From Olivibacter jilunii (GTDB taxonomy: Bacteria; Bacteroidota; Bacteroidia; Sphingobacteriales; Sphingobacteriaceae): a DNA stretch of 64,000 nt. The notes under the pieces are model-generated. The model saw nothing but the letters and a program-made list of their open reading frames with translations, was not told the origin of the DNA and searched no databases. The stretch lies in the NCBI RefSeq assembly GCF_900607235.1, contig NZ_LR027849.1, positions 868,001 through 932,000 on the forward strand. The letters run 5' to 3'. This document shows, in pieces, positions 27,879 to 34,087 of this stretch (positions are counted from its first letter, which is position 1; each line of letters starts with the position of its first letter). The position numbers and the translations under genes were made by a program.

Positions 27879-27902
27879 TCTATTGTTAACATAAATGCTT
27901 TA

Positions 27903-27934
27903 AAGCGGCTATCTAACAGGATAGCCGCTTTTTT
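27903..27934 (+). terminator. Intrinsic terminator after the TonB receptor/lipoprotein pair
   Basis: Perfect 11-bp stem AAGCGGCTATC / GATAGCCGCTT with a 6-nt loop and six Ts. Confidence 0.95.
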
Positions 27935-27985
27935 GTTATCTATACTTGGATGTTTGATATAGGATGACTGTTAGGTTTAACTAAA

Positions 27986-28468
27986 ACCTCACTTCAAAGA
28001 GGTTCGTCCTTATAGCAAACACTATTGGCTTTATAATAAACACATTCAGATTTAATTTAAAGTTGTTTGCCTTTATCTTGTTTCCGTACAACTTTGCCTT
28101 AATTCCGGTCGTCTTTACTTCAAAGTCGGTTGGGTTTATGATGAATCCTTTTGGGTTTATTTCATTGCTGTACGACTTTGTAGCAAAGTTGATCGACCTT
28201 ATATGAAGGACGTTTCCATCTATAATAAAGTCATATGGGTTTATAGTAAAAACCGTTGACTTTACTATAAAGACAATTGGGATTACGTTAAAGTCAATTG
28301 GAATTGAGGTAATTCCGTACTTCTTTAAAGCAAAGCTAATTGCCGTTACATTTATGTTGATCGGCTTTATAATAAAGGTGATCAAATTTGTATTAAATAT
28401 GGTTGTCTTTATGACGATCCCGGTTGACTTTACATCAATACTAGTTAGGTTTGTTTTAATGTCATTTG
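27986..28468. repeat. Degenerate tandem array of 23 units of 21 bp
   Basis: Counting in steps of 21 from 27986 to 28468 gives 23 consecutive units with no slip in phase. Each approximates NN-TTTA-N4-AAA-N5-TTG. Units differ strongly at the N positions but keep the A/T core. Because 21 is three times seven, the minus strand reads as a heptapeptide repeat of the form P-x-x-F-x-I-K (for example PIVFIVK, PYDFIID, PTDFEVK) for about 150 codons, but without any ATG start. Many units carry an internal dyad such as CTTTA-cta-TAAAG. Not a CRISPR array: no constant repeat with unique spacers. Confidence 0.85.
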
Positions 28469-28481
28469 GGATGGGATTGAA

Positions 28482-29049
28482 ACTGGAGGGAATAGGGAGT
28501 AGTTAGTAATGAATAGGACTTAAATGAGGACGTAAGGTATGTTCCCAACTAACAGGTTCCCTTGTTCACTGGGGGAGGTGAATAGAGAGTAGTTAATAGG
28601 ACTTAAATTAGGACGTAAGGTATGTTCCCAACTACCAGATTCCCTTGTTCACTGGAAGGAGATGAATAGGAAGTAGTGAGTAGTTAATAGTGAATGGAGT
28701 AGGAGTTAAATGAGGACGTAGGGCCTATTCCCAACTAACAGGGTCCCTTGTTCACTGGAAGGAGGTGAGTAGTGAGAAGGGAGTAGTTAATAGTGAATAG
28801 GACTTAAATGAGGACATAAGGCATGTTCCCAACTACCAGGTTCCCTTGTTCACTGGAAGGAGGTGAGTAGTGAGAAGGGAGTAGTTAATAGTGAATAAGA
28901 CTTAAATGAGGACGTAAGGTATGTTCCCAACTACCAGGTTCCCTTGTTCACTGGAAGGAGGTGAGTAGGGAGTAGTTAACAGTGAATGGGGTAGGACTTA
29001 AATGAGGACGTAAGGCCTATTCCCAACTACCAGGTTCCCTTGTTCACTG
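28482..29049. repeat. Tandem array of six units of about 82-104 bp
   Basis: Six direct copies end at about 28572, 28654, 28758, 28856, 28953 and 29049. Each has the core GACTTAAATGAGGACGTAAG, then TTCCCAACTACCAGGTTCCC and TTGTTCACTGG. The length varies in a purine-rich AGTAGTTAATAGTGAATAG-like stretch between cores. Most copies carry AAGGAGGTGA or a close variant. It starts 13 bp after the 21-bp array and ends 80 bp before the next gene. No coding frame runs through it. Confidence 0.88.
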
Positions 29050-29128: not shown

Positions 29129-30145
29129 ATGCTAGTTTTATGCCAGGAAAGCCTTACTTTTATGGAACTTATTCTTCGTCGTAAACTAAGCAGAAAGTGG
29201 ATGAACTTCTTCTTTATTACCTGTCTTTTGTTTTTGGTTGTGAAGCGATATTTTCAAGTTTGTCGTGTTCCTACACAAAGTCATTCGTTTATTAGCTTCA
29301 ATACCCATCCTCCTGAAGAATTGCCCATCAATTATGAGGGTGAATTTTCCGTCATAACTTATAATATAGCGGGTTTGCCACAGCTTATTTGCAGCGCTGT
29401 TACCGAGCGTTCGTCAAGTATTGCAGAAATTGGGCGTCGATTGAATGATTATGATATTGTTCATGTGCAGGAAGACTTTAACTATAATAGCTTCTTGTAC
29501 TATAGTGGTAATGAGCATCCTTATAAAACCAAAACGAAAGGAGGCGTACCTTTTGGTGATGGTTTGAATACACTCTCAAAATATCGTATTACGGAAATAC
29601 ACCGCATTCCTTGGAATAATTGCACAGGGGCGGACTGTTTGACACCTAAGGGTTTTACGTTTAGTAAGATTGAAGTAGGGAAGGGCGTATTTATCGATTT
29701 TTATAATGTACACGCAAATGCGGCGGATGATCCGGCCGCTGCTGCCGCGAGACGGAAGAATATGATTCAACTGTCCAATTATATTAAAGAGCACTCAGGC
29801 GATCGAGCGGTCATCGTTATGGGTGATTTAAATGCGCACTTCTGCTATGAACATGACAATATTCGCGATCTGCTTGCCCAAAATGGTTTGAAAGATGCAT
29901 GGGTAACGCTCAAGGCTAAGGATAGCTTCCCCGCTTTCAAAAAATTTGTGAAAGAGGATATTTTGAAGTTGACTGACGACTGTGAGTCTATCGATAAGAT
30001 ACTCTTTCGAAGCAGTGCTGATCTGTTGCTGACTCCAAATGCCTACCGTTTCGAGAACGAGAAATTCAATAATAAAGAAGGAATACCGCTCTCGGACCAT
30101 TGCCCCGTGAGTTTATCGTTTAGTTGGCAGCAACGTAGTTATTAG
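29129..30145 (+). CDS. Endonuclease/exonuclease/phosphatase-fold protein, membrane-anchored or exported
   Basis: 338 residues. A hydrophobic N-terminal segment (MNFFFITCLLFLVVKRYF, about 25-42) acts as signal anchor. The rest is a DNase I-like metal-dependent phosphodiester hydrolase fold: VITYNIAGLPQ, the catalytic Glu in VHVQEDFNY, VHANAADDPAA, VIVMGDLNAHF (D and N) and the final LSDHCPVSL with the catalytic D-H pair. Relatives cleave nucleic acids, sphingomyelin or inositol phosphates; the substrate is not readable here. A second ATG at 29162 would also keep the anchor and is a real alternative start. The six-unit array lies just upstream and may carry its promoter. Confidence 0.85.
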   Translation: MLVLCQESLTFMELILRRKLSRKWMNFFFITCLLFLVVKRYFQVCRVPTQSHSFISFNTHPPEELPINYEGEFSVITYNIAGLPQLICSAVTERSSSIAEIGRRLNDYDIVHVQEDFNYNSFLYYSGNEHPYKTKTKGGVPFGDGLNTLSKYRITEIHRIPWNNCTGADCLTPKGFTFSKIEVGKGVFIDFYNVHANAADDPAAAAARRKNMIQLSNYIKEHSGDRAVIVMGDLNAHFCYEHDNIRDLLAQNGLKDAWVTLKAKDSFPAFKKFVKEDILKLTDDCESIDKILFRSSADLLLTPNAYRFENEKFNNKEGIPLSDHCPVSLSFSWQQRSY

Positions 30146-30394
30146 TTGTTGGTTATTAGTTATTGGTTATTAGTTGTTGGTTATTGGTTGTTGGTTGTGG
30201 GTTATTGGTTGTGGGTTGTGGGTGTGAGTTTTCTTCCTGTCTTTATGTTCTAGCAGGTATCAAGTATCAAGACACCAGCCTACCGGCAGGCAGGTAAGTA
30301 TCAGGACATAAGTATCACGACTTTCCGTTCTATGTCAACTATTTTCCTGTTCAACTACTCAACAACTTAACTACTTAACAACTCGGCGACTTAA
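30146..30394. repeat. Intergenic TTAGTTATTGGTTG-type repeat block
   Basis: The left part consists of runs such as TTGGTTATTAGTTG on the plus strand; the right part is rich in CAACTACTCAAC, the complementary type, so the gap can fold back on itself. The imperfect palindrome GCCTACCGGCAGGC lies near 30282-30295. Between convergent genes; no ORF. Confidence 0.55.
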
Positions 30395-33897: not shown

Positions 33898-33976
33898 AGT
33901 TAAATAGTAATTGATTCATGTAAATTAGGTTTGGTTAAAATTGGGAAAAGGCTCGCTGTGAAGCGCGCCTTTTTTT
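33898..33976 (+). ncRNA. Possible small RNA between promoter element and terminator
   Basis: A perfect -7 element TAGATTTG lies at 33884-33891; a matching TTTG at -33 is lacking. About 50 nt later a stem AAAAGGC / GCCTTTT with inner CGC/GCG pairs and seven Ts forms an intrinsic terminator (33946-33976). No gene on this strand precedes it, so the terminator has no other known use. Any transcript would be about 80 nt. Confidence 0.35.
33946..33976 (+). terminator. Orphan intrinsic terminator
   Basis: AAAAGGC / GCCTTTT with inner CGC / GCG pairs, loop about 6 nt, followed by a long T-tract. Both neighbouring protein genes run leftward. Confidence 0.7.
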
Positions 33977-34087
33977 GTTGTTATTAGCTGTTAGTTATTA
34001 GCTGTTAGTTATTAGCTGTTAGTTATTAGTTGTTAGTTGTTAGTTATTAGTTATTGGTTGTTAGTTGTTAGGTGCTATTATTAAACT

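Follow-up and report, generated by a model that had tools for sequence, protein, structure and literature searches.

Which kind of element keeps an exact step of 21 bp over more than twenty consecutive units while the units themselves diverge widely is the question raised by an array found in the 64,000-nucleotide stretch of Olivibacter jilunii DNA analysed here (the window; positions 868,001 to 932,000 of contig NZ_LR027849.1). A first-pass annotation of this stretch had proposed that such constancy reflects selection on spacing or on a reading frame, and had considered both an array of protein sites and a gene for a repetitive peptide.

Extent and surroundings of the array

The array occupies positions 27986 to 28468 of the window, with no strand assigned, and consists of 23 contiguous units with a consensus of about rCTTTRnnnYAAAGnYRwTYG. 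That these units follow each other without a slip, as first described, was confirmed both by cutting the sequence every 21 bp from 27986 and by a chain search in which jumps of up to 10 bp were permitted at a cost, the latter giving for the window array (L010) a chain of 24 units that ends at 28489 and contains zero jumps. The 24th unit (28469 to 28489) is degenerate, lies in the same phase, and has its counterpart in unit 24 of a paralogous array (L009), which is also 24 units long. Tandem Repeats Finder saw only 2.1 copies (28262-28305), and the wide divergence noted between the units is therefore real. The core pattern proposed for them, with one mismatch allowed, was counted 36 times in the window, where 19.4 would be expected, and none of 100 shuffles reached that count, the largest giving 34. 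A pattern scan over contigs proved unspecific: it gave at least 117 stretches, and the best-scoring among the 80 loci listed resemble other 21-bp or 7-bp repeats by eye.

The array had been placed between a terminator and a second repeat, and both are present. The left border is formed by a terminator-like hairpin on the plus strand (27902 to 27931), located 3' of the upstream gene, which matches the consensus in a scan that found one such hairpin where 1.1 were expected by chance. To the right, positions 28505-29049 hold a second array, with units of about 83-98 bp and 86-87% matches, which is unlike the 21-bp array in appearance. Elsewhere in the window, intergenic 7/14-bp repeats resembling TTAGTTATTAG are located at 30138-30223 and 33976-34083.

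Coding potential

The minus strand of the array is open, as had been reported, with 173 codons free of stops and a 134-aa ORF from a TTG start (27981 to 28385, minus strand). A gene for a heptapeptide-repeat protein, on this strand or on the plus one, would be in keeping with that frame and with a unit length that is a multiple of three; it would also be in keeping with the 190-aa ORF of the sister array L016, whose ATG stands at the array edge in the plus frame, with the in-frame ATG at the edge of L015, and with the absence of plus-frame stops from 5 of 13 arrays. However, column-shuffled versions of the window array contain on average 0.7 stops in the same minus frame, and its openness is thus a by-product of composition. 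The two frames with the fewest stops are both interrupted in some of the 13 arrays, the stops per array being 0, 2, 4, 3, 2, 4, 1, 0, 1, 3, 4, 2 and 2 in the minus frame, and 1, 0, 3, 1, 0, 3, 8, 0, 0, 0, 5, 6 and 3 in the plus frame. The codon-position comparison that the first-pass annotation had advised points in the same direction, since the differences between the window array and L009 fall 61/55/64 by column modulo 3, with no favour for the third position, and 8 of the 13 arrays show little strand polarity. On these grounds coding on either strand was dropped, and the minus-strand ORF was judged to be no gene. The window array is non-coding, and the heptapeptide-gene explanation is highly improbable.

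Symmetry of the unit

A TTTA/TAAA dyad had been seen in many units, and the symmetry turns out to extend over the whole 21 bp. The dyad axes of the window unit lie at base 8 and between bases 18 and 19, and over the 315 units of 13 arrays the mirror columns are near-complementary throughout: T at position 4 (269 units) faces A at position 12 (272), A and G at position 6 (198 and 109) face T and C at position 10 (194 and 116), and C and T at position 16 (185 and 101) face G and A at position 21 (208 and 83). Because contig orientation averages over pooled arrays, the arrays were also tested singly. Taken by itself, the window array has a best mirror axis of 8.6 bits per unit, whereas its 20 remaining axes average -18.9 (sd 5.6). 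When columns were permuted array by array, the dyad reached p<=0.05 in 14 of the 15 arrays of the genus, the freshly amplified L016 being the one that failed, and in 23 of the 34 arrays linked to the gene family described below, despite their unrelated units.

A dyad-symmetric unit reads nearly identically on both strands. When half of the units were held out, the scores of the two orientations were at most 1.4 bits apart in 8 of 13 arrays (forward/reverse, 6.69/6.60 bits in L056, 7.25/7.28 in L058, and 7.55/7.85 in L051). The gap is larger in the recently homogenised L016, L052 and L053, and also in the window array (11.53/8.48) and L014 (9.26/6.22), some polarity thus being left in the window array. 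At the variable positions 6, 10, 16, 17, 20 and 21, the purine/pyrimidine class is largely kept.

Such a unit might also fold on itself, the consensus allowing a 5-bp stem and a 3-base loop in each, and the array would then be a structured RNA or a row of single-stranded hairpins. Against this, the dependence between bases within units is mostly between neighbours, Watson-Crick covariation at the within-unit dyad pairs does not rise beyond about z 1.5 save at the adjacent pair 18-19, a single dyad pair reaches z 2.0 for Watson-Crick pairing across units, and Rfam at gathering thresholds returns 0 matches in the window. For want of covariation this candidate was dropped, and we regard it as extremely improbable.

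Constancy of the step

A profile of the units run against relatives, as the first-pass annotation had suggested, finds arrays in other genera and, with 168 positions, in four of the five genomes of the genus. In the fifth (G001), no array is detectable by this profile, and the genome is also without the ~209-aa gene discussed below. The genome of the window (G000) carries at least four arrays, namely those of the window and of contig C5, and two at C1:372724-373164 and C2:1164639-1165121. The 15 arrays of the genus that were analysed comprise 368 units; of the 353 steps between them, 351 measure exactly 21 bp and the other two 20 bp, with jumps penalised. Among further matches, L214 (within a 1333-aa ORF) and L220, L226 and L227 (four units or fewer each) were omitted from the survey of neighbours, and L059 in G118, with 3 units only and inside a gene that is coding-like by eye, was dropped.

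The closest relative of the window array is its paralogue L009, at an unrelated site (C5:155523-156026), in which 23 of 23 units correspond in order with 63% identity (z 6.3). Unit-by-unit homology is not claimed beyond this pair, L056/L058 (z 4.1) and the window array with L014 (z 3.7) being among the next best of 6279 diagonals. Over 504 bp, the two paralogues differ by 192 substitutions and 0 gaps, whereas five non-coding flank segments of orthologous loci hold 125 substitutions and 5 internal gaps. At the flank rate about 8 gaps would be expected between the paralogues (one-sided Fisher p 0.010), the control being small; counting end gaps as well gives 8 flank gaps and 12 expected; the 30-bp flank segment of L208/L211, with 3 substitutions, is excluded from both totals. 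This result speaks for the proposed selection on spacing, which it does not prove.

Association of arrays with a gene family and small HTH genes

In the genus, the arrays L051, L054 and L056 are separated by 313-323 bp from the start of a gene for a protein of ~209 aa, in the full order HTH gene, array, ~209-aa gene, and relatives of this gene adjoin profile-detected arrays in three other genera. In G000, a complete module stands at the C1 array, its HTH gene lying at C1:373308-373583. Four members of the protein family show only a weak fn3 match in Pfam and nothing passing in NCBIfam, and 18 members combined into a profile find their match in fn3 domains of solved structure, at about residues 113-202. 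The gene family has 110 matches in 21 of the 121 genomes of the bacterial family, at least 25 of them in G022. Sixty of the 110 matches were fetched, and the gene was placed in 59. Taking periodicity within 1.5 kb at lags 12-40 and z>=7, the best 5' period is 21 bp at 33 of these 59 loci and 22 bp at one (L298 in G148, the sole such case), with none at 25, two of which (L277 and L293) are short of upstream sequence. In the 3' direction, the best period is 21 bp at seven loci and there is none at 52; and of 42 control blocks from the window, 39 have none, two have 14 bp, and one has 21 bp and is taken as the window array itself. A second threshold (z>=8 at lag 21) gives 34 arrays located 5' of the gene, at a distance of up to 400 bp in 24 cases and of 708-1714 bp in the other ten. 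These arrays have 9-50 units each, and the units are unrelated between loci, L285/L292 being the sole pair among 561 with a score above 5 bits. Outside the bacterial family, seven relatives matched over 185 or more of 206 positions likewise show 21- or 42-bp periodicity 5' of the gene (z 7.5-26, L321 being the weakest); the shorter match L336 (query 63-204 of 206) was left out.

Leave-one-out profiles at E<0.05 place a small HTH gene next to the array in 23 of the 34 cases, on the same strand and ending between -60 and +300 bp from the array start, L273 and L278 being the weakest (0.025-0.042); the two HTH types, a and b, were defined from the same loci on which the adjacency was counted. The proteins are either HTH_17-like or of a short type with no family assignment. 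The pair that stands out, L285 (G150) and L292 (G007), belongs to two genera and combines similar HTH proteins with a common unit, GCTTCCGnnYCGnAAGC (13.3 bits mutual), as would be expected of a cognate pair.

Further ORFs stand between the array and the ~209-aa gene at several loci of G022 and at L292; by eye they look like a membrane protein and a peptidase-like protein, and the second such ORF of L270 matches CHAP below the curated cut-off. Read by eye, L270, L275, L278 and L292 form cassettes of HTH gene, array, membrane-like and peptidase-like ORFs, and ~209-aa gene, some with a lipoprotein-like ORF in addition, which have the look of a lysis cassette. The ~209-aa protein of L051 has no tblastn match at E<=0.01 in phages and plasmids, and a peptide pattern from the L270 protein occurs in five stretches of viral contigs, none of them confirmed. 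At L303, L304, L296, L297, L051, L054 and L056, repeats of about 10 bp lie between array and gene (by eye), in several loci just 5' of a TAnnTTTG motif, e.g. GTACCGTTTT in L303, which we take to be promoter-like.

The window array has neither an HTH gene of type a or b nor a ~209-aa gene beside it, and it is thus a solo member of this class of arrays, present without partner genes. Twelve of the 15 arrays of the genus likewise lack both the ~209-aa gene and a type-b HTH gene in the stretch read. Arrays are present in G004, where no type-b HTH gene is detected at E<=0.001, and both ~209-aa genes of G004 lack an array; a single trans-acting type-b HTH protein serving all arrays of the genus is weakened as a candidate by this genome. 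Among seven loci of distant type-b HTH relatives, none has a strong 21-bp array beside it. Outside the genus, 15 of 26 array-positive genomes, chosen from 62, have no ~209-aa gene, and some array matches there may be unrelated 21-bp minisatellites. L204 and L206, in a genome (G226) without the ~209-aa gene at E<=1e-6, are freshly amplified 21-bp arrays of the ACTTGGTAACAGTCGCAATTG type.

A Fur-like gene facing the array was also considered. It is intact in G004 (L016, 9056-9352), interrupted by stops in G003 (L015, 5534-5785), and left with too little room in G000 (L225), and the array scores at these sites fall in the same order (12.6, 10.8 and 2.7 bits per unit). By the lag test, none of nine loci of Fur-like relatives outside the genus has a strong array beside it, and the gene was dropped as a general partner of the arrays.

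Arrays that stand alone bring in an explanation that does without the HTH genes, namely an element of chromosome architecture that either has a general nucleoid protein binding or wrapping it or is curved by itself. A unit of two helical turns would suit it, as would the conserved purine/pyrimidine class with its neighbour-base dependence, the arrays of G004 with no type-b HTH gene, and the window array with no HTH neighbour. The linkage of arrays to a single gene family as well as to small HTH genes argues against it, together with unit sequences that are unrelated between loci, and we consider this explanation unlikely.

Turnover at orthologous sites

In three orthologous pairs of sites, the flanks align near the array edges and the arrays themselves are largely unalignable. 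The flanks of L051 and L054 are 79% and 87% identical and can be aligned up to 38-60 bp from the arrays; those of L015 and L016 align to 19-76 bp on one side, and on the other to 72 bp in L015 and 300 bp in L016; and those of L208 and L211, which belong to another genus, are 82% and 86% identical and align up to the left array edge. The L208 and L211 arrays match in one internal stretch of 70 bp and hold common units at different unit numbers. L014 and L057 have common flanking genes, but the alignment ends several hundred bp from the L014 array, and L217 and L219 are 97% identical overall, with no gap among the differences between their arrays. By these alignments, array sequence is replaced quickly while sites and phase persist between species. 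Indels in sister strains, or a missing array at the same site, had been named as evidence against selection: the phase is kept at orthologous sites in several species, whereas one genome in five of the genus has no detectable array and the sequence turns over quickly. At L051 and L054, the conserved parts of the HTH proteins are identical next to unalignable arrays, so recognition by these proteins would have to be loose.

Within the genus, arrays of one genome are also more alike than under shuffled labels, none of 300 shuffles attaining the observed value, and most strongly so in G002. Their own genome is the best fit for 9 of 15 arrays; for the window array, L009, L014, L016, L054 and L055, another genome is the better one. 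A single array of the same genome is a better fit than the array at the same site of another genome in 7 of 8 cases. The window array and L009 being paralogous, these counts are not independent. Such likeness within genomes is what a trans-acting factor would cause. The window unit fits the profile of the genus arrays, including those beside the ~209-aa gene, and scores 9.81 bits per unit with the other arrays of its own genome, 11.11 with G003, 10.65 with G004, and 8.01 with G002.

Another explanation is a non-functional minisatellite, amplified by slippage or unequal crossing-over and now decaying, whose phase would be a memory of its amplification. Several features agree with such an origin: some arrays are freshly homogenised and carry higher-order repeats (with a period of 4 units in L016 and 3 in L052), units are wholly different between loci, the common units of L208 and L211 stand at different unit numbers, and other kinds of 21-bp repeats exist. 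Neutral decay, however, should leave indels, which the 192 substitutions between the window array and L009 do not bring with them; the dyad symmetry recurs among arrays with unrelated units; the period is 21 bp in all but one of the gene-linked arrays; and the array sites persist between species. A minisatellite is accordingly an unlikely explanation.

Proposed working of the arrays

We put it at slightly better than an even chance that the window array is a double-stranded DNA scaffold, or operator platform, for a dimeric DNA-binding protein with a two-turn spacing. The symmetry of the unit, the two-turn step, the transitions at positions where the purine/pyrimidine class is conserved, and the likeness within genomes together point to a dimeric protein that binds double-stranded DNA from one face. 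The idea of protein sites two helical turns apart, already voiced in the first-pass annotation, gains from the symmetry and from the gapless phase and is not proven by them, the binding being a prediction. About 24 dyad-symmetric sites, exactly two helical turns (21 bp) apart, would allow one homodimeric protein to sit on unit after unit along a single face of the helix and could give rise to a regular and cooperative nucleoprotein tract ~500 bp long. In its complete form, the proposed system would comprise a small HTH gene, the 21-bp array, a promoter region, and the ~209-aa gene with its C-terminal fn3-like domain, the array serving as the operator platform by which the adjoining HTH protein may control the downstream gene. 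Since partner genes are absent beside the window array, it would work in trans, as an additional platform or a sink for a factor whose gene lies elsewhere, or it would be a relic.

Among the findings that run counter to the dimeric-protein reading are the better fit of the window array to G003 and G004 arrays than to the others of its own genome, the share of ~209-aa loci (25 of 59) where no strong array is seen, the lack of both partner genes beside the window array, the remaining polarity of that array, and the failed dyad test of L016. The arrays of G004 without a type-b HTH gene, as well as its own ~209-aa genes without an array, argue for another binder or for relics.

A broader proposal, which is possible but which we hold as rather doubtful, would see in the HTH gene, array and ~209-aa gene a Bacteroidota-wide module whose DNA conserves its 21-bp step and often its dyad, but not its sequence: the array would be a scaffold for a protein filament, coded by length and phase and constantly renewed with new sequence in steps of 21 bp, resembling a satellite centromere, and solo arrays would be extra loading sites. 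If the proposed working of the arrays is right, Bacteroidota would carry an undescribed kind of array, in which a two-turn step is held while the sequence turns over faster than its flanks, much as in eukaryotic satellites but in a small, experimentally tractable genome. It would also give a first context to the ~209-aa family, whose tested members pass no Pfam or NCBIfam cut-off and which is so abundant in G022.

Comparison with known systems

In a limited search of open-licence full texts, with subscription journals outside its reach, no description of such arrays was found, and the class of 21-bp phased arrays located 5' of a ~209-aa fn3-like gene is, as far as that literature goes, apparently undescribed.

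The centromere-like arrays of ParR-parC systems and the iterons of plasmids consist of tandem sites spaced by roughly two helical turns beside a gene for a small DNA-binding protein. The arrays described here share this arrangement, the binding being predicted in their case, and they also share with them a site sequence that differs between copies. Unlike in those systems, several arrays are present per genome, the one in the window has about 24 units, and complete modules have a ~209-aa fn3-like gene downstream. Among the neighbouring ORFs read by eye, none resembling ParM, ParA or Rep was noticed. We therefore liken the array to iterons and ParR-parC in its putative way of working and do not file it with them, the partner motor or initiator being unseen.

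REP/BIME palindromic repeats are dyad-symmetric, intergenic and clustered. The present units have these three features in common with them, but are strictly contiguous, keep a fixed 21-bp phase, and are unrelated between gene-linked loci.

Operator arrays, including the direct repeats of LytTR-type regulators, line up a regulator gene, its sites, a promoter and a target, with few sites at a spacing of about 21 bp. The complete modules follow the same order of regulator gene, site array, promoter-like region and target gene, with about the same spacing. They differ from them in the 9-50 units of the gene-linked arrays, where operators have a few, and in their putative regulators, which are HTH_17-like or belong to a type with no family assignment.
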